Shown here: one piece after another, positions 37,404-62,874 of the stretch
How the letters are laid out: each line of letters begins with the position of its first letter
How positions within the stretch are numbered: the first letter of the stretch is position 1
Assembly (NCBI GenBank): GCA_949358305.1
Contig: OX442314.1
Coordinates: forward strand, 46,198,581-46,262,580
Direction: 5' to 3'
From: Strigamia acuminata
Taxonomy: Eukaryota > Arthropoda > Chilopoda > Geophilomorpha > Linotaeniidae
Length of the DNA stretch: 64,000 nt
Translations under genes and position numbers: made by a program
Notes under the pieces: model-generated
Database searches by the model: none
What the model saw: only the letters and a program-made list of their open reading frames with translations
What the model was told of the DNA's origin: nothing

Positions 37404-37599
37404 TGTAGATATGTTTTTATCACAAAGTGTTATAGTCTAAGTGTATTAATTGATGTATTGTTGACGTACGAGATTGCACAAGAATGGAGTGCAACCAATG
37501 TAGTTATTGTAATGAGAGTGTTGTTCGAGTTGGAATAAAATGCCGACATATTCATCTTGTTGATATTTCCAATGATTGAGTATTTATTCTAAACCAACA
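37404..37599 (+). repeat. 5' LTR of the complete copia element
   Basis: 196 bp with TG...CA termini, identical to 42035-42230. It contains a GGAATAAAATGCC polyadenylation-type word. It is preceded by target duplication AAATG. Confidence 0.95.
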
Positions 37600-37601
37600 A
37601 G

Positions 37602-37613
37602 TGGTAGCAGAGG
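37602..37613 (+). other. Primer-binding site, initiator Met tRNA
   Basis: TGGTAGCAGAGG starts two bases after the LTR. It is the complement of the animal initiator-tRNA-Met 3' end (CCTCTGCTACCA). Confidence 0.85.
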
Positions 37614-37759
37614 AGAGGTTTTACGATTATGGCGATGAAAGAATGAATGCTGAGTCTGGGAAAGCGCAAGTTATTAGTGTCACTAAGTTTTGAAAATATT
37701 TGGCGTGAAATTAATTCCTGTTTTGCATTTCTGTCGTCTGCTACGAGTTACGACAAGAG

Positions 37760-40700
37760 ATGGCGATGGCGGATTCATTTGTGAACGTTTCCTCCTCATC
37801 AACGACGGTCGAGAGGTTGACCGATAGGAATTATTTTCTCTGGAAGATGAGATTGCGAGCAGTATTAAAGATGAAAGGCCTATGGAAGGTGGTGATCGTG
37901 AACGACGAACCGGAGAAAGGACGGCTTGGACAGGCAAATTACGGCCAGATGAGGGCAATTTGGGAGAATTGGGAACAGAAGAATGACGAGGCCATGGGGA
38001 TCTTGATGCTGTCACTTTCAGCGGAACAAGGAGTGCGTTACAGCATGGAAACGAACGCCAAAAAGTTGTGGGAAACGATTGAGACTCACATGGGACCAAA
38101 GAACGATTTTGAAGTGGTCAAATGCGGCATAGAATTAGCGCAACTCAAGATGAACGAGAAAGAAACGATTGATACGTACATAAATCGTGCAGAGGCAATA
38201 AAGACCAAAGCATCGGAACTTGGGAAAATATATAGCAATCAGGAGATGCTAAGTTACGTAGCACGAGGGCTGCGAGTTGAATTTGAGCACAATGTGCGAA
38301 TTTTTGAGGGACAAAACAACAATTTGACTTTGAGTGAAGCTCGAACTGCTTTGAGATTTGAAGAGGAAAGACAGCGGGCAAAGAAGAAAAGTCACGACGG
38401 AAATGGAAGCGAAAATGCGTACAGAACTCGACAAAGGGGGAAATGTAACATTGAATGTTACAATTGCCACAAGATTGGACACTACGCCAAGGACTGTTGG
38501 TCCAAAAGTAAAACGGGTGATCCAACGCGCGGAAATGCAAATCCACGTGGAACCGCAACAAACACAAGGACGCCGAACAGAGGACGTGGCGGAAATAGGA
38601 CAAATGAACAGTCAGCACGAAGCGAGGTGCGACCAACACCCAAGCCACGGGAATATTCGTGTGGAGTGAGAGTTTTGGCGATTAATGAAGCTGTTGAGCG
38701 GGAAAGCGATGAGGAAACGCCGGATGAACTTGAAGACTGGCTTCTGGATTCAGGGGCAACAAGTCACATGGTATCACACAAAGATGATTTTGAGTTTTTC
38801 GAGTCATATCCGCAAAAAGTCGGACTGGCAAGTGAGGCAGAAGCGAAGTCACCAGGACGGGGGCAGATGCGTGTCACAGAAGACGTTTCGAGGAACACGT
38901 TACGTCTGAGCAACGTGCTCTATATTCCGAACCTGCAGACGAATTTACTATCTGTTCCGAAGATGGTCGATGCTGGGTTGACGGTGACGTTTACACGACA
39001 GTGCGCCAACGTGCAAGATGAAGATGGAAATCACGTGATGAGGGCACAGCGTGTTGACGATAAATTTATGATTGGGGCGATATACAATGAAGCCAACCAC
39101 ATACAACCTGTTAACGAGGTAGCGTGTACGACACAATGTTTGACACGGACTTTATGGCACCAAAGATTGGGACATCCAAACTTCAAAAATATGGAAGACA
39201 TGAAAAGTCAGAATCTTGTAATAGGATTGAATTGGGATGAAAAATTGCCAGATGAGACTTGTATGGAATGCGTGAAAGGGAAGATGACAAGGGTTCCACG
39301 ACGTGCTGTTTCATATCAACAATCCCAAGAGATAATGGAATTAATTCATGTTGATTTGATGGGGCCAATGCCCGTACCCACATTAGGGGAAGCGCGTTAT
39401 GTGCTAACTATGGTTGATGATTGTAGCCGAATGGTATTTTTGAGAGTATTGAGCACTAAAAGTGAAGCTGGGACCGCAATCAAAGACTTCGTGGCGCATA
39501 TTGAATTGCAGATGGGGCGATTGGTGAAGCGAATACGGTCGGACAATGGCGGGGAATTTTTGAATGACAGTTTGGGACAATACTTCACTCAGAAGGGGAT
39601 TTTACACGAACTGACCACCTCATACTCACCCGAGAGCAACGCGATCGCAGAACGCATGAATAGGACCGTGACAGAAGCGATGCGAACTTTATTAGTGGAC
39701 TCAAAGTTGCCACAGAAGTTTTGGGGCGAAGCTATTCTGACAGCTGCTCATTTACGCAACAGGTGCAAGACGAGTACACACGGCAAGACGCCTTACGAAC
39801 GTTGGAAGGGGAGAATACCCAACGTTAGCTACTTGAGACGCTTTGGATGCGTGGCTCACGTACTAGAACCAAAATTTCGACAAAACAAGTTGAAAGACAA
39901 AACCAGAGAAGGCATACTAGTGGGTTATTCGACTAAAAGGAAAGCCTACAGGATATTTATGCGAGACACAGGGAAAATCACAGAATCGTGTGATGTAGTT
40001 TTTGAAGAGTCACGATTGGGGAATAATCATCTTGACCGGACGGACGAATCCGAAGAACCGATGGATTTAGACGTTGTTTACGACCTTGGTGAAGCACCGC
40101 CTCAACCGATCGAACAACTTGCTCCGGATGTAGACATAGACGAACCGGACCCACCCATTGTGGCTCCAGTACCGGAACAGTTGCCCGCTCGGAGGGGAGG
40201 ACGGAGGCCGGGCGCCACCAAGGAAGTGCTAGCAGCAAACAAGCAAGCTCGTATAGACGAAACCGAAGCGAATTTGCAACAGCGAGGAGTGCGACGCTCA
40301 ACAAGGATTAGAGAGCAAGCACTGCGACAACGGGGAACGCGACAACGAGGAGCGCGACACCGAGGAGCACGACACTCAAGAAAAATCCTAGAGCAGGCAT
40401 TGATGGCGGAAATAATGTTTACACCGAACACCTATGAAGAGGCTATGGCGTCGGATGATGCAAACGAATGGCGAAAGGCCATGCAGGAAGAAATAGATTC
40501 GATGCACCAACATCAAGTTTGGAAAATAGAGCCGCGACCTAGCGATGCAAAGCCAGTTAAATCAAAATGGGTTTTTCGCATAAAGACAAATGCCGACGGC
40601 TCGATAATTCGATACAAAGCCCGACTTGTAGCGGTCGGATGCGGACAGAGACCGGGAATGGACTACGATCAGACATTCTCACCAGTGGTCAGAATAGAGT

Positions 40701-41944
40701 CATTGAGAACACTGTTGAATGTAGCAGCCAAAGAGGACTTACTTCTGGACCAGTACGATGTTAAGACAGCGTACTTACACGGGAAACTGAAGGAGAAGAT
40801 ATATATGGAGCAACCAAAGGGTTTCGAGACTGGAGAGGGCGATTGCGTATGCAGACTAGAGAAGAGTTTATATGGATTAAAGCAATCCGGGCGCTGCTGG
40901 AATGAGAAGTTGCACGAGGTACTGACAAAGTGCGGATTTGAGCGCTCACCAGACGATCCTTGCCTGTATATATGCAGAAGTGAGCGAGGCGTGATAATGA
41001 TGGGAGTTTATGTCGACGATCTCGTCACAGCCAGCTCTAGCGCTAAATTTCGAGACGAGAAAATGGCACAATTGGGGAAATTTGTCGAATTAGTTCACAT
41101 GGGTGAATTAAAGTACATTCTGGGATTAGAAATCGAACGAGACAAAAACGAAATCAGACTTTTTCAACGCAAATACGCCGAAAAGGTGCTACGACGTTTT
41201 GGTTTGGACAAATGTAATGCAAACGCCACACCGTGCGAACTGGGACTGAAACTGGAAGAGTTTGCAGATAGCCCGCCGGTGGATGCGACTTTGTATCAAG
41301 AAATAATAGGCAGCGTGATGTATTTGGCAACAAGCACACGACCTGATCTGAGTTATCCAGTCAGTTCTCTCTCGAGATTTAATAAGGATCCGAGGGAAAT
41401 CCACCTTGCTGCGGCCAAACGTTTACTGCGTTACATCCGTGGGACGCAGAACTACAAGTTGCATTACGGGAAAGAAAAATCATGCCTATACGCGCACGCC
41501 GATTCTAGCTGGGATTCGACGGCAGACGCACGGACATTTACGGGATACGTGGTCAAAGATGGAGATTCGCTAATCAATTGGAAGTGTCGAAAACAGGGCG
41601 ACGTGGCCGAATCATCATGCGAGAGCGAACTCGATGGCATTTCAGATGCGATACGAGATTTAACGTGGACGAAATCCGTTTTGAAGGACTTGGGCGCAAC
41701 ATTTAACAAAGATGTCAAACTCTACAACGACAACCAAGCGGCGGTACAGATGTTACAAGACGGAATCCAACGCGTGAGAAGCAAGTATTTGAATCGCAAA
41801 TACCACTTCATTAAGGCGAGAGTGGAGACGGACCATATACGGGTTGAGCACATCCCCGGGACGGAGATGATAGCGGACGCGCTGACCAAACCGCTCAGCG
41901 GACCGATTTTACTCAAATGTGTGCAGGGAATGGGTTTATATTGA
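37760..41944 (+). CDS. Ty1/copia Gag-Pol polyprotein
   Basis: A single uninterrupted frame of 1394 residues. Gag covers roughly 1-250 and ends with a CCHC knuckle at 233-246. Protease has DSGA at 330-333. Integrase has the HHCC region (H467, H472, C501, C504) and DDE residues D532, D595 and E631 with 35 residues between the last two. Reverse transcriptase has YVDD at 1084-1087. RNase H has the ADS motif at 1247-1249 and SCESEL further on, and the tail ADALTKPL is near the end. The order protease-integrase-RT-RNase H defines copia. All key residues are present. An Arg/Gln/Gly-rich imperfect repeat (RQRG/RHRG words, about 856-871) lies in the integrase-RT linker. Because gag and pol share one frame, the Gag excess must come from something other than frameshifting, perhaps splicing as in Drosophila copia. 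Confidence 0.96.
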   Translation: MAMADSFVNVSSSSTTVERLTDRNYFLWKMRLRAVLKMKGLWKVVIVNDEPEKGRLGQANYGQMRAIWENWEQKNDEAMGILMLSLSAEQGVRYSMETNAKKLWETIETHMGPKNDFEVVKCGIELAQLKMNEKETIDTYINRAEAIKTKASELGKIYSNQEMLSYVARGLRVEFEHNVRIFEGQNNNLTLSEARTALRFEEERQRAKKKSHDGNGSENAYRTRQRGKCNIECYNCHKIGHYAKDCWSKSKTGDPTRGNANPRGTATNTRTPNRGRGGNRTNEQSARSEVRPTPKPREYSCGVRVLAINEAVERESDEETPDELEDWLLDSGATSHMVSHKDDFEFFESYPQKVGLASEAEAKSPGRGQMRVTEDVSRNTLRLSNVLYIPNLQTNLLSVPKMVDAGLTVTFTRQCANVQDEDGNHVMRAQRVDDKFMIGAIYNEANHIQPVNEVACTTQCLTRTLWHQRLGHPNFKNMEDMKSQNLVIGLNWDEKLPDETCMECVKGKMTRVPRRAVSYQQSQEIMELIHVDLMGPMPVPTLGEARYVLTMVDDCSRMVFLRVLSTKSEAGTAIKDFVAHIELQMGRLVKRIRSDNGGEFLNDSLGQYFTQKGILHELTTSYSPESNAIAERMNRTVTEAMRTLLVDSKLPQKFWGEAILTAAHLRNRCKTSTHGKTPYERWKGRIPNVSYLRRFGCVAHVLEPKFRQNKLKDKTREGILVGYSTKRKAYRIFMRDTGKITESCDVVFEESRLGNNHLDRTDESEEPMDLDVVYDLGEAPPQPIEQLAPDVDIDEPDPPIVAPVPEQLPARRGGRRPGATKEVLAANKQARIDETEANLQQRGVRRSTRIREQALRQRGTRQRGARHRGARHSRKILEQALMAEIMFTPNTYEEAMASDDANEWRKAMQEEIDSMHQHQVWKIEPRPSDAKPVKSKWVFRIKTNADGSIIRYKARLVAVGCGQRPGMDYDQTFSPVVRIESLRTLLNVAAKEDLLLDQYDVKTAYLHGKLKEKIYMEQPKGFETGEGDCVCRLEKSLYGLKQSGRCWNEKLHEVLTKCGFERSPDDPCLYICRSERGVIMMGVYVDDLVTASSSAKFRDEKMAQLGKFVELVHMGELKYILGLEIERDKNEIRLFQRKYAEKVLRRFGLDKCNANATPCELGLKLEEFADSPPVDATLYQEIIGSVMYLATSTRPDLSYPVSSLSRFNKDPREIHLAAAKRLLRYIRGTQNYKLHYGKEKSCLYAHADSSWDSTADARTFTGYVVKDGDSLINWKCRKQGDVAESSCESELDGISDAIRDLTWTKSVLKDLGATFNKDVKLYNDNQAAVQMLQDGIQRVRSKYLNRKYHFIKARVETDHIRVEHIPGTEMIADALTKPLSGPILLKCVQGMGLY

Positions 41945-42019
41945 AGAGAAGAAAGAATTTAATTAAGTTCGATTTTTTGGGTTATTTTTGTTGTCTGTTA
42001 AATGCTGTTTACTTTGTGT

Positions 42020-42032
42020 AAAAAGAAGGGGA
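42020..42032 (+). other. Polypurine tract of the complete copia element
   Basis: AAAAAGAAGGGGA lies two bases before the 3' LTR. Confidence 0.85.
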
Positions 42033-42034
42033 TT

Positions 42035-42230
42035 TGTAGATATGTTTTTATCACAAAGTGTTATAGTCTAAGTGTATTAATTGATGTATTGTTGACGTAC
42101 GAGATTGCACAAGAATGGAGTGCAACCAATGTAGTTATTGTAATGAGAGTGTTGTTCGAGTTGGAATAAAATGCCGACATATTCATCTTGTTGATATTTC
42201 CAATGATTGAGTATTTATTCTAAACCAACA
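42035..42230 (+). repeat. 3' LTR of the complete copia element
   Basis: Identical to the 5' LTR and followed by target duplication AAATG at 42231-42235. Confidence 0.95.
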
Positions 42231-42235
42231 AAATG

Positions 42236-44524: not shown

Positions 44525-44575
44525 AAATCATCAGTTCATCCAGGGGTGAGTCACCCCTGGATGAACTGATGATTT
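44525..44575. repeat. Perfect 25-bp inverted repeat with 1-nt loop
   Basis: Bases 44525-44549 are the exact reverse complement of 44551-44575, with a single G between. It would form a very stable hairpin or cruciform. It marks the left edge of the CCCGGGAATT-rich region described at 44551-58940. Confidence 0.9.
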
Positions 44576-44742
44576 CATTTTTCCCCGCCCTTTATTTTTT
44601 CCCGGAAAACAGGAAATTTTAATCCAATTTCCCGGGAATTCCCGGAAAATTTCGGGAATTCTACAAAATAAATTATTTTGTTGAATTCCCGGAATTTTCA
44701 TTTGCATTCGCATTCACGTCGTGTTATAAGTGTTATAGATGT

Positions 44743-45739
44743 TGTCGCGCTCAACTCTAACTGTCGCTAACTCGTGGTATGAGTCACTCTCTAATCTCGC
44801 AATACCGCTTTACTCAAGCGGTTACCCAAATAATGTGAAACGGCAAACAATGTAAAATGGTAAATATAATAAATGTATTTATTATATGGGAATTTACAGG
44901 TAAAAGGAATAAAATATGTAAGGGAATAAAGGTAAAAGGTTGGGGATGTGTGAAGTTGTCGGGAAACTGGTCGAGGTCGTCCTTTGTTGACGCTCTGGAT
45001 CCAAGATGGCGTCCGCGTGGTAACGTGGTGTCGTCTTGGGCCGGCGTGGCAATGAATGGCGTCCTCGTCTCACGTTTCTTGTTCGGTCCTTCGGGCTCAC
45101 GCTGGTCGGGCGCGAGTGAATGCCTAAAAGGTCTTACTTCTGGTCTGTTGTCTAGGTTTAGGGTTTTTTGTCGGTGTCCGGCGATCACACAGCGGCGGAC
45201 TCTTCTGGCTCCCGGCGATCACACAGCGGCGGGAACGCTCGTCGTGGTTTTTACTGCAGTTTAGGCTTGTGCGACCGTTTGTCTGCACAACTCGCTAAAC
45301 TGGAGTGGTGTTTGCTGTTTCTAGCGGGTGTGCTAAAACAGCGCGGTAATCTTATCACGCAGGTTACTCTGCGGAGGTTAACACGAATCAAATGTACTCA
45401 CGAAGAATATATCCTTTGTCCCTGGTCACTCCTAGTGCTTGACTTAGGCCTGATCGGTAGGACGGTAGATTTCTCGTGTGTTTCTTGTTTGATGGTTGTG
45501 TTGGTTCTGCCCGCTCAGTGCAAGGCACATTCCTTTGCACAAAGCGGGGTTGACAGGTGACCAGAATCACCCAATGGTGAGGTGGACGAGCCATCCCCAC
45601 TCCCTCAGGGCAGACGCCTGTCCATTGACTAGATGTCAATGCACTGAGGGAAGGGAGACGCGCTTGCGGCTCCCCTTACACCCGAAACGAGGTCACGAGA
45701 GAAACTCTTCGTTGACCCCGGTCCAGTCGGGTCACAACA
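44743..45739 (-). repeat. 3' LTR of gypsy element 2
   Basis: 997 bp. The minus strand begins TGTTGTGACCCG and ends GCGCGACA. A minus-strand AATAAA lies at 44883-44878. Short ORFs inside it are the same in both LTRs and are not genes. Confidence 0.95.
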
Positions 45740-45750
45740 CTTCCCCCTCC
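45740..45750 (-). other. Polypurine tract of gypsy element 2
   Basis: The minus strand reads GGAGGGGGAAG immediately before the 3' LTR. Confidence 0.85.
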
Positions 45751-45775
45751 GAGCTCAGACCGTGGGGCTGAGCGA

Positions 45776-48700
45776 TCACTTCTTTCCTGAGGGACCCGAC
45801 ACTGAGTCCGTCACCTGGGCGTAACTCACTCCAGGGACAGGCGGTTGAGTGCCGGGTGGCGCGGGTAGATCGCCTACTAGCGCCGAGGACCGATCTCGGG
45901 GGTCCTCATGCTCCGTAATGAAGCATAATGCATGGCCGTCAACTGGCTCATGCGGGGCACGCGTCCTCTCGTGTAACCAAACGCTCGGGATGTAGGCGGA
46001 GAAGCCGGTGTTCGTATGCCGGATGGCATTGGCTTCCGCTGGCGTCACTGGCGCACGGTGGGCTCTCAGCAACCTCTGGTGGAAGATGAGGTCTTTAGTC
46101 TTCCGGATCTGGTTGTGAAGCCAGATGAAGACCGATTTGCCTTTGTCCCGCTGCGCGAGGATAAACCTCCTGGTCGCCGTCGTCATCGAAAGATGGGGAA
46201 ATTCTTCGATGATTCGCCCGTAATAATCTGGTGGAGGCGGTGCCGGCTGCGGCTTCTGGGTTGCCGCGGGAATCACGGCTTGTGTCGTTGTCGCCGCTTG
46301 GGCCGGTGGAGTCACGGGCGGGGTCGGCTTCGTTCGCTCGACGGACTTGACGGGTGGTGTTCGGCACAGCAAGCGCTTTGGTCTACCCGCCACTTCGAAC
46401 AGGGCGGGTCCTTGCGGGGATATCTCCGCAGGCATCGGTGGCGGAATCGGAACTCCGCTCGTCGGCGAGATCATCATCTCCACATCCTCTGCCGATTCTT
46501 CCGTCTGGATGGTCATGGCGCGTAGTTGTTGGGTAGGCGCCGCCGTCCAGGTGGCGGAGGTGTAACGAAACGCCGTGCTTCGCAACTTGTACCCCTCAAA
46601 TTCGGGGTTTACCACATCCCTGGTTAGCTCGTACCGAGTCAACACAGGGTCGGGCAGAATGGAGCTCCACTCTGCGAGGAGTGCACGGGGAACCTGTACA
46701 CCCTCTCTGTCCACGACAGACCATGCGGCCATCGCCTGACGCCCTTCTCCGAAGAGTGCTGGGGTTAGCAGCTGCATCATGACCTTGGTCAATGATAGCT
46801 GTAGGCTGCGACGATTCACTGGATTCGATCGCTCTGAATCCGCAGTGAAGGCACACGAGAGCTTACTCATCATCGCCGTTGCCCATTCGATGAAATATCG
46901 CTGGGCCTGATCCACACCTCGCAAGGCGGGTGCGGAGACTCTTGGGTCTTCCATCACGAAGCGAAACGCTGAGAGCTCGGAGATAGTCGGGTTGGCGGCT
47001 TCTCTCGCGAGTCGCGCTTCTTCGTCTCGCCTCTCGAAGAACAGGGCCGAGGAACCGGGTCGGGGTCGGCTCGGCCTGTAAATGTCGGTCAAATTGGCTC
47101 GACATTCCTGCATAATGCTCTGTCCAACGGGGAGAGGGACTGAGCGGTCGGTGTGTAAATTCGGCGGATCGCTCGAATTCAACAACGACGGCGGCGGCAG
47201 GTTCGGAGGCGGCTGCGTCTTGGTCGGCAGCGTTGGCGTCGGCAGCGGTGGTGGTGGCTGCGTCGGCGGTGGTGGCGTCTCCGTCGTCTGCACCCCAGTC
47301 ATTGCGACTTGGGGCGCCGGGAGAGGTTGTTCGGAGCCCGAGGGCTGCACGATGGCGGTTGGCATGCCATCGGGTCGTGGTCGCGAATTTATGTAGTCTG
47401 CGAGCCACCTTGCCACCTCGTGTGGGGTCACCTTTCCGTCGGTGACAACACCCATCTTCCTGGCGTGTTTCATCGCGGGATCGAAACGTGTCAGTTTCGT
47501 CCGCTTCATCTGCGTCAGAATCTCGCGAAGGTCCCGCGTATCTGCCGCTGGGACGTGTCGCTCACCTGACTGGCTACCACTTCGTCGACCCGCTCTCTTG
47601 GAGACGTAGGCGGGTTCGGGGATGGGACGGCCCCGAGCTTCGCACCTCGCGAAGTATCGCTCCTTGCGATCTTTTTTCCGCTGCTCGCGATGAGTCAGCG
47701 GACGTCTAGAAGTGCTGGGACGAGAGACTCGCTCTTCGTCACCAGACATCCAAACCTCCTTGTACTCCTTACCGTCTTTAATCTGACGGTTTACGAAAAT
47801 TCGCGGTCGGGAATACTGCGAAGGGTCACGCACTGTACTAGTGGATGGCCCAGCTTCGTTGCTTTCAGTCGTGTTTTGAGCGACACGCTGCTTCTTGGTT
47901 GTCACCGGGGAACGCGACTGGCTGTTTCCGGCGCCTTTGGAGCGCTTGCGCTTCCGCGGGTAGCTGCTTTTGGGCCCCAAAATCCCCAGGTGGTGGAGTT
48001 GCCACATCTCGGCTTGGGATGTTAAAATTCCCATCCGAGGTCTCCACTGGGGCGTACTCTCTCCCAATCGCAGCCTCTCAAACCACAGATGAATATCATC
48101 CGCGGTCATCCCCTCGTTTTGGAGGATGCGCTCGGCCACTGCCGCAGCGGTATCCACCAGCTGTTGTCTATAATGCTGGTAGATGGCCTCACGGGCCTCT
48201 TCTGTCTCGGCTGCTCGCCACGCATGCAGCACGTGTTCCTCCGCCGGAGAGCCAGTGTACTGACTTGACAATCCGGGGTGGAAAATTGGCGATTTCGGGT
48301 CCTCGTCACGAGCTAACTCTGTGGCGATGCCTTCGCGCATTCCCTCCGGGAACGTATCCAGGAGCGTGCAGTCTCGTACCCAACGTCGGGCGATGCATCG
48401 GGAATGTAGTATTCGCAGGCGCCAAGGGTCGGCGTCTTCGCCGAAACATCGTCGGTAAAATTCGGGCAGCGCGCCTCGAAATATCCCGCCACGAGCGATG
48501 CAAGCGGGGTCTAATGGTCCCCATGTTTTACGTAGTGCCATCTGGAAGGATGGAGAAATAAACAATTAATAAAAAGTTAATATTTAAATACGTAGATAAA
48601 TGGTTGGTTTCGAGGGACGTTGCCGATACGTGCAGCCGTCCGTCGAGACCGATTCCTGTCTATCGGTGCGAACGTAGGACGAATTGTCCCTCGTCGGATA

Positions 48701-49474
48701 GAGAAAGAGAAGTCATCACGTAAAAAAATCTGTCTCATGTCCAAAACGCACAGCGAGACGGAATCGAGCCTTTAATCCGGATTTTTATCATCAGATTTTA
48801 CTTAAAATTAATTCTAACGTTAATTAGAACATTACTAATAATTAAATTAATAATTATCAGTCATTCGTAAAAAGAATTCGTCGGGTGTAAATTATTACTA
48901 AAATTGCACAATAAATGTGCTTGTCGAAATTTTATTAAATAAATAAATCCAATAAAGAATTATTCCGAAGTCGGACTTTGTCTAATTTTTAAAAAAAGTT
49001 AAAGTCAAATTAAATTTATCCAACACACCGAAAAATTCATCGTACGAATGTTAAGTTGCATCAATTCGATGCGTCAAATTACTTGTGGAGAAAAATATTC
49101 TTTTACAGAATATTCTCCCCTTGTCATAAAATTATTTATGGGTCGAGCCCATTGTCTCGCTCGTGACTCAAGTCATGAGGAATTTTCGAGACGCGAGGCG
49201 ACGTGAAGTCTGCGCTCGCACCCCGAAAACAAATTAACAAGGAAAAAATACGATCGTGTGAGCGATCGCGGTTAATAATTAATTAAACGCTATTGCGAGT
49301 GCAAAGCACTCATGTCAGGTATTAGTCAACAAAATTTCTTCTTCAGCAGCATGGAAATAATTCTCATGCGCCGAGGCCGACTTCTACCTGATCGGGTGGC
49401 ACTTGGTCCACATCGTGGTCCCAGTTCTCGTCCTCGTGCTCGATGGCAAGCACGTCGTTCTCTTCCTCGTCCAT
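45776..49474 (-). CDS. ORF3 of gypsy element 2 (two-exon, function unknown)
   Basis: A large frame downstream of pol is preceded by a short coding exon. Exon 1 is 49474-49388: 29 codons from ATG, 13 of 29 Asp/Glu, ending CAG before GTAGAA. The intron is 49387-48542 (846 bases), ending TTTCTCCATCCTTCCAG. Exon 2 is 48541-45776, starting exactly at an ATG and encoding 921 residues. The junction is phase 0. In exon 2, residues 20-43 hold the IFxxALPExxRR-x8-WxLR block shared with element 1. Basic nuclear-localisation-like words lie near 196-219 (RKRKR, KKQR), and a long Pro-rich stretch sits near the middle. The C-terminal half is alpha-helix-rich and ends close to the polypurine tract. There is no signal peptide, membrane helix or retroviral-type motif, so it is not Env. 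Function is unknown; a nuclear or particle-associated accessory role is a guess. Exon 2 could also be translated alone from its own ATG. Confidence 0.72.
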
Positions 49475-49954
49475 GGCGAGGAGCGCGCACAAAAAGCTCA
49501 ATCACGATTACAAAAAAAAGGATGATAAAACTATCTCAAAAAACTCGATAAAAACGTTAAAAACGAGGATCACGCACGAATGCAGCGATCAGCTGTGAAA
49601 AGCGGAAGTTCGTGTGAACACGAGGTAATCGCGATGGATTCTGGGTAATATACTCCAGAACCCGGGTGTTTGAGACTAGTGCGCACCTACCCGTGCGCAT
49701 GTTACGCTACGGGTCTCCTTTGTTCTCACTCCCGTGCGCGATTGCTGCTACGGGGTCTTTTGCACGCGGTATCCGACCCGTGCCGATAATTTTGCTACGG
49801 GTCCCGCGCTTCCACGCCATCTTGTGACGTGAATTCGACCGATATCCGCTTTGTTGGACTTAGCGGAATTTTCTTCGAGTCTCGCAACGTGATGGCTTGC
49901 ACTATCGGTCGATTAGAATTTATTTTTAGTGCCGCCATCGACTCGTAATTTATT

Positions 49955-52900
49955 TTATTTCTTTCCTACGACCTTTCCGCCTTTTATAAACGGATTATTT
50001 CTTTTTGGTCGCAGGTAACGGATCGAGGCAGGTACGATATTTTTTGTTGTTTTTTGTGTCTGTACCTCCTCATTATTGTTTTCTTTTTTATCCGTGTTTT
50101 TTGTGTTTGTTTCAGGAGTTTCTCCTGTTTCCCCCCCGACCAAAATTGGATCTGGAACGGATTCAACTATCTCGTTTACCGGAGGTGAAGGGGCGTCGAA
50201 ATACTCCTCGTTGTCACTTGGCGGTGCTTGTTCCGACTCGCCAGCGAACATATCGACGATTTGGCCGTCAGTTTTAGACTTGACTTGGCCCTTGGCCCAC
50301 ATTTCTTGCGGGAATTCCGGAATGTACGGAGTTAACTCTCGTACCTGGATCGACTTTTGCTCGGTGTTGTCCTCGAGCTTGCGTAATTTATACGCGTTAC
50401 CGCCATGCTTGCCGATGATTACATACGGACCATCTCTCTTGTCGGCCAAGCTGGCGGTGATTCCTCTCGCTGCATTTGAGAGAATGTGTGTGTCCTTCCA
50501 CACTAAATCATTGATCTCGAAATTCACAAATTTTCCACCGCTTTTATCTTGTAAAATGCGGTCGCGCATGTTAAAAATGTGCGCCATCATATGTTTGTAT
50601 GTGTTTGAAATTGTTTGCTCCAATTTATACACGTACTCATGTGGTTTCTCGGGGTCCACCACATTTACTGACTCTGCCACTCGTGGGTCCCAAGGCACTC
50701 GTAGCTCTCGGGCGAAGTTGAGGTAGGCCGGAGAAAAATCTCTCGTCCTCGAGACTGTTGTTCGTATGCTGAACGCGATCTCCCTCAAGTATTCATCCCA
50801 CCTATTGTGGATGTCAGTGAATATGCTTAGTGCATATTTAATGTCCCTGTTGAGTCGCTCAACGGGATTTGTTCTAGGATTGTAGGTCGAAGTATGTGAC
50901 GCCACAATCCTGAATTTCTCACAAAACTTACCCCAAATTTTCGAGATAAATTGGGGTCCGTTATCGGATATTATTTTACGTGGAAATCCGTAACGTAACG
51001 CCACGTCGTAGATACATTCAACGATTTTCTCTGCTGAAGGTCTAGCGACGGCGTACAACTCGGGCCAACGAGTTGCCACGTCCATTATAACGATAATGTA
51101 CGCATTTTTATTTCCCGTAACGGGTTTTGGGCCCATCACATCGACGCTTAAACAATCAAAAGGCGCGTAAGGCCCTAAGAAAATAGTTTCGAATGGTGAT
51201 TTACTCCTCGGCTTGCACGCTTGACATCGCTGACATTGGTGGACAAAAAGAGCAATATCTTTTTTCATCCCTGTCCAGTGAAAAAGCTGTGTAGCACGAT
51301 AGAGTGTTCTGCTTACTCCCGCATGGCTCGCAAGCGGGTGCCCGTGTAACAACCACAGCACGCGACCGATTAAGGAAGCAGGTATTACTACCTTTACTGC
51401 GGTGTCCGATTCACTCAAGTCATCTTGGTGATTTGGGTGATGTTTCACCAAAAGGCCGTCATCCAATAGGTAATCTATGGATTCGTGTGCATAACGACGC
51501 TTCTGCCTTCTGGTTAAGTTGGGCGGATATTTTCCTGTCAGTACGAATCTAGCTCTGTCCTGACATTTTTTGTCTAATTTTTGTTGCACAATTATTTCCT
51601 CCCTTGTCGGGGGATTGCTTTGCATTTGCTTGCCGACATGAGCGTGGAAGGCGCTTAGAAGCGGGTCATTTATTCTCCGCTCTAGCTTAAATTCCTTCTT
51701 TGCATTTGGGTAATTGTCAGCAGCTGGTTGGTATAACCGCGTCCAGAATCCACAGAATTTTACATCTGCCGGAGACGCGGTAGGAATTTCATTCATCTTC
51801 CTTAAATCCCAACGGTGACAACTCGTAGGGCAATAAATGATGCGGGAGTCATCCTCGCCATCATCGTCAGCGTCGATTGGATCTGACACTGGTGCCCGTG
51901 ACAGAGCGTCAGCCACGACGTTATATTTGCCGGGCTTGTATTGAATGGTCAAGTCGCATGCCATCAGTTCTAACTGCCATCTGGCTAGTCGACCGGCTGG
52001 TTCCTTTAATTTCATCAGCCATTGTAACGCTTGATGATCTGTGTGGACCACAAATTTGGTATATTCGAGATAATCTCTGAATTTCCTTATGGCCCACACA
52101 ACTGCCAAACACTCCAACTCTGTGGCGTTGTAATTTTTTTCAGCGCCTTGGAGTTTGCGACTTATAAACATGCACGGCAGGTCTTGTTCGACTCCGTCGC
52201 GCACGTGTGTTTGAAGCAACGCGGCTCCCAACCCAACTCTGCTGGCGTCCGTATGTAATATGAACGGCCGGTTTAAGTCGGGTAGAGGCATTACGCCGAC
52301 TTCCGTCAGCATCCTCTTTATTGCATTAAATGCGATGTTGCACTCCTTTGACCATACAAATTCGTTTTCATTCTTCAGGAGGTCGGTAACTGGGGCTGCC
52401 ACTTCAGCTAGGCCCGGTAGCAACCTGCCGAAGAAGTTTATCATTCCCATAAACCGTTGGACACCTTTAACGTCCTCGGGTGGTGGGAAACGATTAATCG
52501 CATCGATTTTTTCGGGGCCAATAGCTAAACCATTGACTCCAATGCGATAACCCAGGAAGGCAAGCTCCTTTCGACAGAACTTGCTCTTGCCTGGGTGAAC
52601 GTGTAACCCAGCTTTTGCCAGCCGGGTGAGCACTTGGTCGATGTGCTCAACGTGCTCTTCGAATGTTTTGGAGGCAATAACTATGTCATCTAGGTATGCC
52701 CACACAAACTGATGCAGGATATCACCCAATACGCTTTCGATTAGCCTCTGAAAGGTACTGGGAGCATTCACTAAACCAAATGGCATGACGTTGAACATCA
52801 ACCGTCCAATTGGCGAGTAAAATGCTGTTTTTATCTTATCCTCTGGCCTCATCTCAACCTGCCAGTATCCCTTCGACAGATCCATCGTCGTAACCCAAGA

Positions 52901-54025
52901 AAAGGGGCTAAGCTCTCTCAAAATGGATTCGATAGACGGCATCTGTATGGGATCTATCTCTGTCACCGCGTTTAATGGGCGGTAATCAATGCATAGGCGT
53001 GGATCCGAGCCCGGGCGCATCACGAGCACAACTCGCGTCGCGTATTCTCCCTGGGCCTCGGAGACAATGCCACTGTCTAGCATTTCTTGGCACATTTTTT
53101 GCACTATTTCACGTTTTTGCGGGTTCATTCCCTTATACGCAACTCGTATAGGTTTATTATCCGTCAATTTAATTTCGTGAATAGCCCTATTCGTTCGGCC
53201 CGGTTTTTTCGACAGGATCCCCTCATATTTAAGTAGGACCCTTCGTAGGGCTGCCGCTTCGTTTAATTCTAAAGCGGCGTCGGCGACAAGCGTTTCCACT
53301 ACATTGTCCCGTTGCAATTCTGTTACGAATGCTTTAAAATCGTAGTCTTGAACGAATTTCTTTAGGCCTTTCTCCCACTGTGTCTTGTCGGCCGCTTCTT
53401 TTACAAGAGCTGGTGGCACGACAATTGCGGGTCTTTCCTTATCATTTCTGATATAATTCCAAGATTTCGTTATTGGATTTGGTTGTATTTCCATTGACGC
53501 CATGAGGTCTAAGCCCAACAGAAAAATTCTGTCGCATGTGGGCAGGACCAGGAAAGGGTGCTGTTCTACCCCTCCGAGCCACTCCATGGTCAATAATATA
53601 ACTCCTTTTGGACGCGCCATTCCGTTGGCGGTTTTTAGACGTATATTTTTATTAACGCCTTTTATCTTATCGGTGAGACCCAATGATGCTACTATGTCTT
53701 CGGAAACGAACGAGCGATCTGCTCCCGAGTCTAGCAGTCCCATAATTTTTTCACGTTCTATTGTCATGGGCAACATGCATAGGCGGTTGGTGTATTCGAC
53801 CGCCACGTTGCACATGAAAACACGAAATTCTTCTGTGTCTTCGACTACTTGAGGTAATTCTTCAAGCAGTAGGTTCGGTTCTTCCGCCTCAGCCTCAGCG
53901 TTTGCGGTAATTACCTGCAAAGCGTTGTTGGCCCTGTCTTGAATTTGGGCGTTAGCTATGTCACTACCCATTTCTTTGACTGGTGGCGGCTTATCGAACC
54001 CTTTGTTAAACCCCTTCTTCTTCAT
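49955..54025 (-). CDS. pol: Ty3/gypsy Pol polyprotein (element 2)
   Basis: 1356 codons from ATG 54025, probably made as Gag-Pol. Protease DSGA at 99-102; reverse transcriptase with YLDD at 444-447; RNase H with TDAS at 592-595; integrase HHCC (H896, H901, then C931-C937) and DDE residues D962, D1021 and E1056, again with 35 residues between the last two. The tail is acidic then basic. No inactivating change is visible. It matches element 1 Pol domain for domain (for example HGHPL, SDNGPQF and NPVER in both), but many positions differ, so the two elements diverged long ago. Confidence 0.95.
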   Translation of the reverse strand: MKKKGFNKGFDKPPPVKEMGSDIANAQIQDRANNALQVITANAEAEAEEPNLLLEELPQVVEDTEEFRVFMCNVAVEYTNRLCMLPMTIEREKIMGLLDSGADRSFVSEDIVASLGLTDKIKGVNKNIRLKTANGMARPKGVILLTMEWLGGVEQHPFLVLPTCDRIFLLGLDLMASMEIQPNPITKSWNYIRNDKERPAIVVPPALVKEAADKTQWEKGLKKFVQDYDFKAFVTELQRDNVVETLVADAALELNEAAALRRVLLKYEGILSKKPGRTNRAIHEIKLTDNKPIRVAYKGMNPQKREIVQKMCQEMLDSGIVSEAQGEYATRVVLVMRPGSDPRLCIDYRPLNAVTEIDPIQMPSIESILRELSPFSWVTTMDLSKGYWQVEMRPEDKIKTAFYSPIGRLMFNVMPFGLVNAPSTFQRLIESVLGDILHQFVWAYLDDIVIASKTFEEHVEHIDQVLTRLAKAGLHVHPGKSKFCRKELAFLGYRIGVNGLAIGPEKIDAINRFPPPEDVKGVQRFMGMINFFGRLLPGLAEVAAPVTDLLKNENEFVWSKECNIAFNAIKRMLTEVGVMPLPDLNRPFILHTDASRVGLGAALLQTHVRDGVEQDLPCMFISRKLQGAEKNYNATELECLAVVWAIRKFRDYLEYTKFVVHTDHQALQWLMKLKEPAGRLARWQLELMACDLTIQYKPGKYNVVADALSRAPVSDPIDADDDGEDDSRIIYCPTSCHRWDLRKMNEIPTASPADVKFCGFWTRLYQPAADNYPNAKKEFKLERRINDPLLSAFHAHVGKQMQSNPPTREEIIVQQKLDKKCQDRARFVLTGKYPPNLTRRQKRRYAHESIDYLLDDGLLVKHHPNHQDDLSESDTAVKVVIPASLIGRVLWLLHGHPLASHAGVSRTLYRATQLFHWTGMKKDIALFVHQCQRCQACKPRSKSPFETIFLGPYAPFDCLSVDVMGPKPVTGNKNAYIIVIMDVATRWPELYAVARPSAEKIVECIYDVALRYGFPRKIISDNGPQFISKIWGKFCEKFRIVASHTSTYNPRTNPVERLNRDIKYALSIFTDIHNRWDEYLREIAFSIRTTVSRTRDFSPAYLNFARELRVPWDPRVAESVNVVDPEKPHEYVYKLEQTISNTYKHMMAHIFNMRDRILQDKSGGKFVNFEINDLVWKDTHILSNAARGITASLADKRDGPYVIIGKHGGNAYKLRKLEDNTEQKSIQVRELTPYIPEFPQEMWAKGQVKSKTDGQIVDMFAGESEQAPPSDNEEYFDAPSPPVNEIVESVPDPILVGGETGETPETNTKNTDKKENNNEEVQTQKTTKNIVPASIRYLRPKRNNPFIKGGKVVGKK

Positions 54026-54048
54026 GAATGGCGCAGACGGTCGAGAAG

Positions 54049-57000
54049 TTATTTCTTCGCCGCCTGCGCTGACTCGTTTTTTGACTCGTTTTTTGCCATG
54101 GCGAGTTTAATCTCTGCCATCTGCTTCATTATTGCGTCAAATTTAGCGTCTTCTTTCGCTGTTCTTGGGCACTCATTGGAATAGTGACCCGGTTGGTTAC
54201 ACTTGAAACAACGAATATTTGATTTGTCTCTTGGGGCTTCAGTCGATTTTTTCTTTTCAGGGTCTGCTTTCGACGGTGGCGTGTAATTTTTCCGAAAATA
54301 CTTCGGAATTCGGCCGGCATTTGGTTTTAACCTGGCGCGAAATTCTTCTACCGCTCTATCTCGATGGATGAGATGTACTAGCGGTCCTTCCTCATCGCAA
54401 CCCGTTGATAAGGTATCGCGATAGCTTCGTATTTCTTCGTCCGTCGAATAATCGTCTTTTTCTTCTTTTTCGTCTGATTTTCCGGCATCTTGTCCGGCTT
54501 CCTCCCCCTCCTTGACCTCCTCCAGTGTCGCTTGCATGGCTGACGCTGTCGGTGCCTTTTTAGGGGCGGCCAAAGGGTTGGAAGGCAGCGTGGATGTCAG
54601 TTTATTTTTTATTTGTAAACCAACGCTAGCTTCTGCCAGCTCCATTATACCGCTAAGATATTCAGTAGGGCGCATAATTTTATCTGTCGCCCCATATCTT
54701 TCCGCACTCAACTTGAGACGTTTAGCGGTTGCTGCTTTCTCCGCTTCTGGTAAAGCGGAATAATATCTCTTCTCGATATCTATCGTGTTCTCAAACAGGA
54801 AGGCGCTCATCTCCTCGTAGCTGCCTCCTGTCGGTGCCCTTTCTTCAAGTAACACCCGTTGCGAGTATTCCGACAAACCGCCGAGAAAGAAAAGGTTGAA
54901 TCCCGTGGCATGAAATTCCATCGGGGCCTTTTCGAACAACAATCTGGCGCGAATGTCGTAATCCATTATGGTTTCACCAGGCATCTGGCGAAGACCTCGC
55001 ATCTTTCGGCTCACCTCTTCGGGTGTCTCGCCGTAGCGCAGGTCGAATCTCATTAAAAAGTCGTCCCAATTGATGCCTTTCAATCCTTGGTACCACTCAC
55101 GTGCCGAGCCTGTCATTAGCTCGACAATACCGTGGGTGAGCATGTCTCCTACGGTGGCTTTAGTGGCAGTCTTAATTCGAATTACTTCGTCAAGGAAGCG
55201 ATCTCCCGCTTTCCATGACCCGTCGAAACGGTTCTGAATATAAAATTGCCACCTAATATTCCCGGTAACACTCATGGTGTCACGTCGGGAGACAGCGTAT
55301 TTTTTCTTTACGCGGTCACCAGTGCTACGATTACGATCGTTTCGTTTGCTCAGATCGATTCCCTCGGCTTTTAACGAGCCAAGTAGTGCTCTTCCAAGCT
55401 CTCCCATCGTATACTGCCGACCCGTCGAATCGGTAAACGCGCTTTGTCGGGGAAGGTCCTGAAACTCCTCCCGTCGGTGGTCGCTATTTTCCGATCGACG
55501 TCGTTTCTCTCTATCGCGCGGAGAGTTGGATCTCTTCCGGCGATTACTTGATTTTTCCTTTCGTCTGTCGTCGTTGGATGAGGGGTCGGAGCTGGGGTCA
55601 GGAGACGGTGAGCGGCGTGGCGGGTTGCGCCGTGAAGAGTTTGACTCTTTCCGGCCCCTACGACGGTCGTCACGTTCCCTTTCCCTGCGTTCATCGCGCT
55701 CTCTTTCCCTTCGTCTTTCTCCGGAACCTCTCTCCGAATCGTGATGACTGGGTGCATTTGACTCCAGCCCATCTGACGACGAATCACTATTTCCGTAGCG
55801 ATAATATTTCGGTCTTTCATCGCGTTTGCCTTCTCCTCGCGAAGAGGTGCGATCATGCGATTGTCTCCTTGACGACTCGTCGTCTTTAAGGATGGGTACT
55901 GGTTGTTGCCACTCAGTCCCTTGCGGATTATCTTGCTGTTGGCTTGTGAGAGCTTGCTCTTCATTTCGCCTAGCATTATTAGCGTTGATTAACCGCGTTA
56001 TCGCATTATTTGTGGCTGAATCGAGAGCTTGCATGCGGGGCCGAGTTGGTTGTTCTCTGGCCGACGCATCTCTCTTGCGCGGAGTAGCTGGTGTTGCCCT
56101 CTCCGGCTGGGGTTTGGGTTTGGCCTTCGGCGTGCGCTTTGGGTCTCCCTCTAGGCTCTCGTCGGACAGCTCGGATGAACTGATCTCTGGTTTGCGAACG
56201 GATTTCGGGTCATCTCGTCGCAATCTGGCCATAAATGCTCGCTCTGCTTCTTGTTGCGAGTGGAAAGCATATCGATGTGCTCTCAGGGCTCGGTCAACTA
56301 TTTCTACCTCCTCGGGAGTAGTCGGATTGGGCTGGGTTCTGCCGTACTCGAGAGCTTGCGCTTCTCTTTCCGCCAGCTTCCTCCGTCTCTCGCGAATGGC
56401 TTGTCGAGCCTCGTTCTCTGCATCCGCTTCAAATTGAGCGGAATCAACCAATTGTTGAGCGTGTGCACCTTCAACAATGGTGATTTGTGGGGATACACTG
56501 TGCGCTTTTAAAGCTGCACGTACGATTTGTAACGTTTCGTACACTGTAATCTTCCCCGTCGGAAGGGTGTATCTCACTCCCTCCGCTTGTGCCAATTGCA
56601 TCGCATCAATCAAGGTGCCCGAGACGCTGTAAGGCTGGCTCGAAACACGCTTGACAGAGGACGAGTTGGACTTGTGCCCTTCAGACACTACCGAGGCTGG
56701 TCGACTGTGCGTAATTGGCGTGTTTAGCGCTGAATTCGCTGTCGTGTCGGACGCCGTCCTTTGTATCGAAGACGTCGCCCTCGGATCGTTTACCTCGGTA
56801 TCGTGCGTTAGACGAGGCGATTGGTTACGGGATAAAACCTCGTTTCCGCTCGTCTCGCCGTCACGATGGAGACGCGGCGGTTTGGAGTGGGACGGATCCT
56901 CACTCCGCTCCGTCTCGTCCAATCGCTGCCTCGTCTCGGCGTGAGACGGGTGCGATGCCTCCGAAGCGCTTCGTCGGTCTGGCTTGGCCTTGCGGCGTTT

Positions 57001-57132
57001 TTGCCTAGACTCGTGCGCTGAGGCTTTGGGTAAGGGACCTCCAGATCGCAAATGATAATCGGCGCCTTTACGGCTACCAGCTCTCTTATTTGCGTCGGAG
57101 TCGGAATCCGTTACTCGGATATTGTCTGCCAT
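54049..57132 (-). CDS. gag: Ty3/gypsy Gag (element 2)
   Basis: 1027 residues from ATG 57132. The N-terminal third is hydrophilic. A segment like DAMQLAQAEGVRYT corresponds to DALREQARLEGVKVT in element 1. An Arg/Glu/Asp repeat-rich region follows around 440-600 (RERERDERRERERDD type), then a capsid-like region, and a CCHC zinc knuckle at 975-988. The last residues read KNESKNES. This pair arises from a 12-bp tandem duplication that doubles the frameshift heptamer. Stop at 54049-54051; pol's first ATG is 23 bases further on in the -1 frame. Confidence 0.9.
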   Translation of the reverse strand: MADNIRVTDSDSDANKRAGSRKGADYHLRSGGPLPKASAHESRQKRRKAKPDRRSASEASHPSHAETRQRLDETERSEDPSHSKPPRLHRDGETSGNEVLSRNQSPRLTHDTEVNDPRATSSIQRTASDTTANSALNTPITHSRPASVVSEGHKSNSSSVKRVSSQPYSVSGTLIDAMQLAQAEGVRYTLPTGKITVYETLQIVRAALKAHSVSPQITIVEGAHAQQLVDSAQFEADAENEARQAIRERRRKLAEREAQALEYGRTQPNPTTPEEVEIVDRALRAHRYAFHSQQEAERAFMARLRRDDPKSVRKPEISSSELSDESLEGDPKRTPKAKPKPQPERATPATPRKRDASAREQPTRPRMQALDSATNNAITRLINANNARRNEEQALTSQQQDNPQGTEWQQPVPILKDDESSRRQSHDRTSSRGEGKRDERPKYYRYGNSDSSSDGLESNAPSHHDSERGSGERRRERERDERRERERDDRRRGRKESNSSRRNPPRRSPSPDPSSDPSSNDDRRKEKSSNRRKRSNSPRDREKRRRSENSDHRREEFQDLPRQSAFTDSTGRQYTMGELGRALLGSLKAEGIDLSKRNDRNRSTGDRVKKKYAVSRRDTMSVTGNIRWQFYIQNRFDGSWKAGDRFLDEVIRIKTATKATVGDMLTHGIVELMTGSAREWYQGLKGINWDDFLMRFDLRYGETPEEVSRKMRGLRQMPGETIMDYDIRARLLFEKAPMEFHATGFNLFFLGGLSEYSQRVLLEERAPTGGSYEEMSAFLFENTIDIEKRYYSALPEAEKAATAKRLKLSAERYGATDKIMRPTEYLSGIMELAEASVGLQIKNKLTSTLPSNPLAAPKKAPTASAMQATLEEVKEGEEAGQDAGKSDEKEEKDDYSTDEEIRSYRDTLSTGCDEEGPLVHLIHRDRAVEEFRARLKPNAGRIPKYFRKNYTPPSKADPEKKKSTEAPRDKSNIRCFKCNQPGHYSNECPRTAKEDAKFDAIMKQMAEIKLAMAKNESKNESAQAAKK
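54076..54094 (-). promoter_or_regulatory. Two tandem -1 frameshift heptamers A_AAA_AAC
   Basis: In the gag frame the minus strand reads GCA AAA AAC GAG and then TCA AAA AAC GAG. Heptamers lie at 54094-54088 and 54082-54076, 12 bases apart. From the first heptamer onward the -1 frame has no stop and continues into pol across the gag stop. Confidence 0.82.
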
Positions 57133-57181
57133 TTTTGGGTATGAAAAATGATCTCAAGTTCTATTCGAGTCGTTTAAATCG

Positions 57182-57199
57182 ATCCCGGACAGACCCCCA
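57182..57199 (-). other. Primer-binding site, tRNA-Pro-like (element 2)
   Basis: The minus strand TGGGGGTCTGTCCGGGAT starts two bases after the LTR. Its complement fits the animal tRNA-Pro 3' end at 15 of 18 positions. It differs from the element 1 site at three or four bases. Confidence 0.62.
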
Positions 57200-57201
57200 C
57201 G

Positions 57202-58198
57202 TGTCGCGCTCAACTCTAACTGTCGCTAACTCGTGGTATGAGTCACTCTCTAATCTCGCAATACCGCTTTACTCAAGCGGTTACCCAAATAATGTGAAAC
57301 GGCAAACAATGTAAAATGGTAAATATAATAAATGTATTTATTATATGGGAATTTACAGGTAAAAGGAATAAAATATGTAAGGGAATAAAGGTAAAAGGTT
57401 GGGGATGTGTGAAGTTGTCGGGAAACTGGTCGAGGTCGTCCTTTGTTGACGCTCTGGATCCAAGATGGCGTCCGCGTGGTAACGTGGTGTCGTCTTGGGC
57501 CGGCGTGGCAATGAATGGCGTCCTCGTCTCACGTTTCTTGTTCGGTCCTTCGGGCTCACGCTGGTCGGGCGCGAGTGAATGCCTAAAAGGTCTTACTTCT
57601 GGTCTGTTGTCTAGGTTTAGGGTTTTTTGTCGGTGTCCGGCGATCACACAGCGGCGGACTCTTCTGGCTCCCGGCGATCACACAGCGGCGGGAACGCTCG
57701 TCGTGGTTTTTACTGCAGTTTAGGCTTGTGCGACCGTTTGTCTGCACAACTCGCTAAACTGGAGTGGTGTTTGCTGTTTCTAGCGGGTGTGCTAAAACAG
57801 CGCGGTAATCTTATCACGCAGGTTACTCTGCGGAGGTTAACACGAATCAAATGTACTCACGAAGAATATATCCTTTGTCCCTGGTCACTCCTAGTGCTTG
57901 ACTTAGGCCTGATCGGTAGGACGGTAGATTTCTCGTGTGTTTCTTGTTTGATGGTTGTGTTGGTTCTGCCCGCTCAGTGCAAGGCACATTCCTTTGCACA
58001 AAGCGGGGTTGACAGGTGACCAGAATCACCCAATGGTGAGGTGGACGAGCCATCCCCACTCCCTCAGGGCAGACGCCTGTCCATTGACTAGATGTCAATG
58101 CACTGAGGGAAGGGAGACGCGCTTGCGGCTCCCCTTACACCCGAAACGAGGTCACGAGAGAAACTCTTCGTTGACCCCGGTCCAGTCGGGTCACAACA
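57202..58198 (-). repeat. 5' LTR of gypsy element 2
   Basis: 997 bp, apparently identical to 44743-45739. A minus-strand AATAAA lies at 57342-57337. The promoter should lie here, but I cannot place a TATA box with confidence. Confidence 0.95.
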
Positions 58199-59700: not shown

Positions 59701-59918
59701 TCATTTTAACAAATATGGCGTGGAACGTTACTGGCATTTGGCGTCCAGTGGGGCCGATTAGTTCGCTGCTTTGTAATTGTAATCTTGGCGAAATAAAAAT
59801 AAAAGAAATAAATAATTCAATTCATCGTGCGGAAACAAAAAAAATGTATTTTTTAATAACCAAAGAAAACAACATTTTACACAAAAGATTCTCTCTTCTC
59901 ATTCGTAAACGATAGCTC

Positions 59919-59980
59919 ACGAAAGAAATGATTCGCGCCTTTTATGCAGTTGCATAAAAGACGCGAATCATTTCTTTCGT
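59919..59980. repeat. 30-bp-arm inverted repeat overlapping the lectin gene stop codon
   Basis: Arms 59919-59948 and 59951-59980 pair with one mismatch around a 2-nt centre. The stop codon of the lectin gene (TGA, 59970-59968) lies in one arm, so the mRNA would carry a long stem-loop at the start of its 3' UTR. The second gene copy has the same structure with perfect pairing. Confidence 0.88.
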
Positions 59981-60963: not shown

Positions 60964-61059
60964 CGTTGACTCGCTGGAATGTTAACCGCTCGAACTGTGT
61001 TCGGTCGTAACAATCGACGTGCAATCGACGTGCACTGAAAAAATGTGTTGTTAAGTGAA

Positions 61060-61730
61060 AAAATGTCCAAAAAAAATGCATTTTTAACTGAAAAAATGAA
61101 AAAAAAATGCATTTTTAACTGAAAAAATGAAAAAAAAATGCATTTTTAACTGAAAAAATGAAAAAAAAATGCATTTTTAACTGAAAAAATGAAAAAAAAA
61201 TGCATTTTTAAGTGAAAAAATGAAAAAAAAAAGCATTTTAAACTGAGAAAATGTGTTTTTAAGTAAAAAATATGAATTTTCACGAGAAAAAAAAAAAAAA
61301 AAATGCATTTTCAACTGAAAAAATGTGTTTTTAAGTGAAAAAATAAATTTTCACGAGAAAAAATGAATTTTCACGAGAAAAAATGAAAAAAAAATGCATT
61401 TTTAACTGAAAAAATGAAAAAAAATGCATTTTTAACTGAAAAAATGTGTTTTTAAGTGAAAAAATGCATTTTCAAGTGAAAAAATGAAAAAAAAAATGCA
61501 TTTTCACGAGAAAAAATGAATTTTCACGAGAAAAAATTTAAAAAAAATGCATTTTCAACTGGAAAAATGTGTTTTTAAGTGAAAAAATGAAAAAAAAAAT
61601 GCATTTTTAACTGAAAAAATGTGTTTTTAAATGCAAAAAATAAAAATAAAATGCATTTTTAACGGAAAAAATGTGTTTTTAAGTGGAAAAAATGAATTTT
61701 CACGAGAAAAAAAGAAAAAAAACCAAGTTT
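61060..61730. repeat. 31-bp A-rich minisatellite
   Basis: The word AACTGAAAAAATG starts at 61086, 61117, 61148 and 61179, a 31-bp step. Variants continue to about 61730 with TGTGTTTTTAAGTG and AATTTTCACGAG words. It begins about 100 bases upstream of the lectin gene start codon. Confidence 0.9.
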
Positions 61731-62870: not shown

Positions 62871-62874
62871 TCAA

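Follow-up and report, generated by a model that had tools for sequence, protein, structure and literature searches.

A putative two-exon, non-envelope third gene downstream of pol in two diverged Ty3/gypsy elements of Strigamia acuminata

What is encoded by a 921-codon open frame that lies downstream of pol in a Ty3/gypsy element and does not look like an envelope gene? The question is raised by an element (here element 1) in a 64,000-nucleotide stretch of the Strigamia acuminata genome (assembly GCA_949358305.1, contig OX442314.1, positions 46,198,581 to 46,262,580), referred to below as the window, for which an earlier note, made from the letters alone, had proposed a giant gypsy element with a spliced, non-envelope third gene of about 950 residues. 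The element is of the gypsy type, and at 13.5 kb it is giant only in a relative sense. A spliced non-envelope third gene is the best reading of the region, but the word unusual, also used of it in that note, has to be qualified in view of two precedents, CERV of the element Cer1 and the third open reading frames (ORF3s) of bdelloid rotifers. The gene, here likewise called ORF3, very likely is a real gene of the element, made up of two exons, and judged from the sequences it should be a genuine, probably old third gene of a distinct Ty3/gypsy lineage.

ORF3 of element 1 is located downstream of pol on the same strand, with its stop codon 25 bp upstream of the purine tract GGAGGGGGAAG (Table 1). 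Exon 1 encodes the acidic leader MDEEENDVLAIEHEDENWDHDVDQVPPDQ, and its donor, CAG|GTAGAA, joins in phase 0 to exon 2, the acceptor of which, TTTCTCCATCCTTCCAG|ATG, abuts a start codon; all of these features are present in the sequence as the earlier note described them. The longest stop-free run in any of the six frames of 300 first-order Markov sequences matched in composition was 398 codons, versus 921 in exon 2. Splice sites were scored with approximate metazoan frequencies, so that only the ranks within one interval carry weight, and on this scale the exon 2 acceptor is the top scorer between pol and exon 2 (9.8, with the runner-up at 6.5). The exon 2 frame opens 8 codons ahead of the acceptor, and the GC content steps at the boundaries of ORF3, from 0.586 in exon 1 to 0.364 in the intron and 0.596 in exon 2. 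A codon-usage score trained on the gag and pol genes of element 1 ranks the annotated frame as the best of six in all four ORF3 exons of the two elements considered here, and the ranking is unchanged, again in 4/4 exons, with stop codons excluded from the score.

The second of these is a divergent element in the same window (element 2), which has the two-exon plan in common with element 1, in the same place downstream of pol, in the same phase and on the same strand. Its donor, AGG|GTAAAT, also in phase 0, is the equal best of its interval (7.1), and the acceptor, TTTCTTTGAATATAG, is the top of its interval (8.3 versus 7.6 for the next), giving two of two intervals in which the top-scoring acceptor is that of exon 2. 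The last stop of the exon 2 frame is the acceptor's own TAG, and the frame thus opens exactly at the acceptor. Since there is no in-frame ATG anywhere in the 224 codons of this exon, splicing is the natural reading of ORF3 in element 2.

The two pol proteins pair with 100/100 support in a tree of 30 rows, where a branch of 1.23 separates them from all others; this tree contains 28 of 120 listed database proteins, its bootstrap has not settled, and with no outside group in it the pair is not placed. The underlying search gave 589 matches at E 0.001 among 7987 scored candidates, and among the 120 matches listed the few telling names are transposon 17.6, gypsy and erranti-like, the named relatives being animal. 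The gag proteins have little in common (BLASTP E 0.006, in the region of the zinc knuckle). The two exon 2 products are alike in their first 120 residues (IF..ALPE..RR...W.LR), with a local z of 5.95 and 1 of 1000 shuffles as good, and other cuts gave a global z of 3.81 (1/1000), 4.83 for 230 residues (2/1000) and 3.17 for all of exon 2 (7/1000), with controls at -0.36 (residues 531–760 of exon 2 in element 1) and -0.66 (the start of gag). This kinship is weak alone, and becomes convincing together with the identical place, phase and exon plan.

How often such a first exon might arise by chance was estimated from 2000 second-order Markov sequences for the interval from the pol stop to the exon 2 acceptor of each element. 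A candidate was defined as an ATG-led frame of at least 25 codons ending in phase at a donor of at least 5.4, and as acidic with at least 27% acidic residues. Each real interval holds exactly one candidate, the acidic frame. Among the simulated intervals, 216/2000 (element 1) and 138/2000 (element 2) had any candidate and 0/2000 in either case had an acidic one, but all three thresholds were chosen after both exons had been seen, so the zeros look more impressive than they should; it is safer to judge each element by how often any candidate arose, in about 11% and 7% of the simulated intervals respectively.

The exon 2 product of element 1 contains 11.2% proline and 10.2% arginine, in keeping with the richness in proline and basic residues noted earlier. 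It appears to consist of a helical N-terminal part, a basic stretch, two proline-rich stretches, a helical middle and a tail, where the helices are predicted with low confidence. Residues 191–330 have a net charge of +22, the proline-rich stretches are found at residues 396–460 (35%) and 691–770 (28%), and basic clusters are located near residues 196 (PRKRKRSK), 288 (EQRKKDRKER) and 315 (SKRAGRR). No membrane-type hydrophobic stretch was found in exon 2 by hydropathy, without a dedicated predictor, and since the highest 19-residue mean is 1.07 it is unlikely to contain a membrane helix; the exon 1 peptide is strongly acidic, and the earlier statement that signal peptide and membrane helices are lacking agrees with this. 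No Pfam domain is found above the cut-off in ORF3, and three matches below it, Peptidase_M16_C at 0.012 and, for residues 1–190, a GDSL lipase at 0.08 and FliH at 0.22, were judged to be chance; Pfam gave no match of any kind for exon 2 residues 501–690 and 771–921 or for exon 2 of element 2. In a protein database that includes insect and other animal proteins, searched for relatives sharing exact five-residue words, there was no homologue of the whole of exon 2 at E 0.001 among the 7993 candidates scored, namely those sharing most words, nor of residues 1–200 at E up to 10 among 1543 candidates. Relatives of ORF3 were found neither in phage records nor in viral contigs, where an alignment of the two pols gave 96 pattern matches and 0 confirmed, and among solved structures no homologue was found, the only match being Filamin-C at E 0.46.

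Because the predicted intron is still present in the integrated copy of element 1, whose long terminal repeats (LTRs) are identical, the RNA that was copied was unspliced, and so is the genomic form. Splice sites of medium strength would leave part of the element RNA in this form; the full-length RNA would then be kept for packaging and for the synthesis of Gag and, by -1 frameshifting, Gag-Pol, and the spliced form would make ORF3. An element placed in this way would have to export intron-containing RNA, and this might be the task of ORF3, as a largely disordered, basic protein, soluble and located in the nucleus, that would bind or accompany the genomic RNA in its unspliced form and thereby set the balance of spliced and unspliced RNA. 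Such a nuclear role, similar to that of CERV or Rev and with the full mechanism outlined here, is drawn by analogy and is put forward as tentative, being possible rather than probable. More speculative, and to our mind unlikely, is the wider proposal that an old animal gypsy lineage has its own family of large nuclear regulators, each from two exons and without sequence kinship to Rev or CERV, that control how unspliced genomic RNA is exported. The acidic leader exon would then allow a weak donor to tune the amount made, and RNA regulation in the retroviral style would have been invented independently in this lineage.

Several observations weigh against a two-exon gene with such a role. In element 1 exon 1 ends at a weak donor (5.5), third-equal in the interval between pol and exon 2 where the best reaches 7.7. 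The donors present in the 5' leader and in the LTR are weak too, or else ambiguous, and no leader donor feeding exon 1 was identified among them. The codon-usage score of exon 2 in element 1 is about zero (-0.018), with its other five frames at -0.091 to -0.282. The likeness of the two exon 2 products is weak by other measures (BLASTP E 0.005; tblastn in the window E 0.75), and the exon 1 proteins have no similarity beyond charge, 155 of 1000 shuffles being as good. The structure prediction suggested in the earlier note was run on the exon 2 product, and the models are too poor for a fold to be read, the mean predicted local distance difference test (pLDDT) score being 40.9 over the full length and 49.6 over residues 1–230. 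Leucine-rich export-like motifs are not above shuffles in ORF3 (7 versus a mean of 6.7). The gaps between pol and exon 1 fold strongly in both elements (z -4.99 and -5.18; in a repeat -5.14 and -6.34), but nine gag and pol controls per element gave z values of -2.95 to -5.75 (element 1) and -4.49 to -8.83 (element 2); since these controls, matched in length, fold as strongly, the folding was not accepted as evidence for a structured RNA resembling the Rev response element between pol and exon 1.

In windows of 150 bases the intron of element 1 is not outstanding, with its lowest z values at -4.2 to -4.6. In the intron of element 2 the stretch 25845–25696 reaches -7.63, below all 27 pol windows (lowest -5.43). 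No match to an RNA family was found.

Among other explanations, ORF3 might be real and spliced and serve Gag as a partner in structure or assembly, or be a particle-associated factor, rather than regulate RNA export. This would suit a large protein, rich in proline and arginine, that is mostly of low confidence in the models and has a helical N-terminal part, but Pfam finds no zinc knuckle or Retrotrans_gag match within ORF3, and separate spliced expression would fit a regulator made in small amounts; we consider such a partner somewhat unlikely. It is also conceivable that the region holds two independent units, namely exon 2 translated from its own ATG at 48541, from a leader-spliced RNA or an internal promoter, and a separate acidic peptide of 36 codons. 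The ATG adjoins the acceptor in element 1, and if the reading of exon 1 continues past its donor the frame comes to 36 codons (element 1) or 33 codons (element 2), but the missing ATG in exon 2 of element 2 and the fact that both exon 1 frames end in phase 0 at the donor make two units improbable.

In each element the ORF3 exons have a higher GC content than gag and pol (for exon 2, 0.596 versus 0.519 and 0.467 in element 1, 0.576 versus 0.453 and 0.399 in element 2), as might be seen if ORF3 were a host gene, captured and carried as a passenger. The presence of ORF3 in two diverged elements on the other hand implies an old gene that has been kept, the intron is retained, and homology to a host gene, which the earlier note had named, together with a lack of junction reads, as counting against its proposal, was not seen, the search for shared five-residue words giving no relative of ORF3 in the protein database; a passenger is accordingly quite improbable. 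A highly diverged envelope gene would share the predicted splicing, but the hydropathy maximum given above, the acidic N-terminus, only three N-glycosylation sequons in 921 residues and the absence of a Pfam match above the cut-off leave very little room for it. Least credible of all is a chance open frame in GC-rich DNA. A GC content of 0.596 favours long frames, and antisense frames of 238 and 169 codons are present, but the simulated stop-free maximum is far exceeded and the related exon in element 2 argues strongly against chance. A two-exon gene belonging to the element is thus the reading we prefer.

Table 1. Positions of the two Ty3/gypsy elements and of their genes, counted from the first letter of the window.
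Feature	Element	Position	Strand	Remarks
Ty3/gypsy element	1	44743–58198	minus	13,456 bp, intact-looking
3' LTR	1	44743–45739	minus	997 bp, 100% identical to 57202–58198
Polypurine tract	1	45740–45750	minus	GGAGGGGGAAG, adjoins 3' LTR
ORF3 exon 2	1	45776–48541	minus	921 codons and stop
ORF3 intron, predicted	1	48542–49387	minus	846 bp, GT...AG, GC 0.364
ORF3 exon 1	1	49388–49474	minus	29 codons, net charge -13
pol	1	49955–54025	minus	1356 codons; protease, reverse transcriptase, RNase H, integrase (Pfam)
gag	1	54049–57132	minus	1027 codons; CCHC zinc knuckle, Retrotrans_gag match
Stretch resembling a primer-binding site	1	57182–57199	minus	Sequence after 5' LTR
5' LTR	1	57202–58198	minus	997 bp
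ORF3 exon 2	2	24917–25591	minus	224 codons, then stop
ORF3 intron, predicted	2	25592–25860	minus	269 bp, AT-rich, GC 0.316
ORF3 exon 1	2	25861–25950	minus	30 codons, nine D or E, net charge -8, donor AGG|GTAAAT
pol	2	26293–30519	minus	47% identical to element 1 pol
gag	2	30540–33563	minus	1007 codons

Element 1 has the two LTRs and the short target duplication of a Ty3/gypsy element, the sequence ATGT flanking both outer ends of the LTR pair, and the Pfam domains of its pol follow the gypsy order, with the integrase last. The insertion should be recent, because the LTRs are 100% identical and have these direct repeats at their outer edges, and identical LTRs suggest a recently active copy whose transcripts may be findable. 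The stretch following the 5' LTR seems to resemble the tRNA-Pro type, at 15 of 18 positions, and a search for tRNA genes with the bacterial code found none. Pol of element 1 is in the -1 frame relative to gag, and the open frames overlap by 55 nt at the end of gag, where the gag-frame heptamer A AAA AAC is found twice (54076–54082 and 54088–54094); the doubling arises from a 12-bp tandem repeat (54070–54095). In element 2 the overlap is 19 nt and carries the same heptamer at 30546–30552, and from the heptamers in the overlaps we infer that both elements might use -1 frameshifting for Gag-Pol. Two near-perfect palindromes, at 44525–44575 and 44645–44699 with arms 100 and 93% complementary respectively, lie shortly beyond the outer end of the 3' LTR in element 1.

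The genes of element 2 lie within 24917–33563, and a possible primer-binding stretch at 33674–33657 resembles that of element 1. A second, 3' LTR was looked for within the window and not seen, and the 3' part of the element therefore seems to be missing. A copia-like frame, recognized by eye, is located nearby at 23472–24425. Elsewhere in the window a copia-like element, also assigned by eye, occupies 37401–42231, with a 1394-codon open frame (37760–41944) and 200-bp terminal repeats that are 99.5% identical. Positions 1–23441 consist of GC-rich higher-order repeats with units of about 2.65 kb and one 4.2 kb block repeated at 99.95% identity, and positions 59708–64000 hold a duplicated unit, offset by about 3.4 kb and about 95–99% identical, with a shared open frame.

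The envelope genes of errantiviruses (gypsy) are located downstream of pol and are expressed by splicing. ORF3 is similar to them in position and in its predicted splicing, and by hydropathy it shows no sign of a signal peptide or a membrane helix. No report of this ORF3 family was recognized in the open-licence literature searched. LTR elements with a third gene other than envelope, or with accessory genes that are spliced, have been described before. The MDG1 group of Drosophila encodes two accessory non-envelope proteins, sORF1 and sORF2, the former in a subnuclear compartment, which differ from ORF3 in being small and upstream of gag, with no splicing found (PMC11952523). Plant LTR retrotransposons carry additional open reading frames (aORFs) in sense and antisense, of which an antisense one in Grande is reported to be nuclear (PMC7264820), whereas ORF3 is in sense with two exons, and the named relatives of its pol, among the matches listed, are animal. 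In bdelloid rotifers several types of non-envelope ORF3, namely GDSL, DEDDy and others, are reported to be translated from mRNAs that have undergone splicing (PMC5408684), and these include recognizable enzymes, whereas the present ORF3 shows no Pfam family above the cut-off and has a predicted internal intron of its own. A Rev-type regulator, as in human immunodeficiency virus (HIV), would combine an arginine-rich motif for RNA binding with a leucine-rich signal for export; ORF3 contains basic clusters, and its export-like motifs do not exceed the number in shuffled sequences.

The closest precedent is CERV of Cer1, a Ty3/gypsy element of C. elegans, a protein of 517 residues whose five exons begin with three that are read in the gag frame (PMC10309623; splicing also in PMC3315495). 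CERV is nuclear, is made from a spliced mRNA and is required for the genomic RNA to be exported, and with a stop mutation in it genomic RNA was undetected in the cytoplasm (PMC10309623). Like CERV, ORF3 lies after pol, is non-envelope, has a basic cluster of the nuclear-localization type, lacks wide homology and should be spliced; it differs in having about 950 residues and two predicted exons, neither of them in gag. The gag-shared N-terminal exons of CERV are not matched, as exon 1 of ORF3 lies after pol, although further upstream exons are possible. Regulation of spliced versus unspliced RNA in LTR retrotransposons without an envelope is known in few cases, CERV being the clearest in animals in the literature surveyed, and a large, conserved and split accessory gene in another lineage would provide a second system for asking whether such regulators arise repeatedly.
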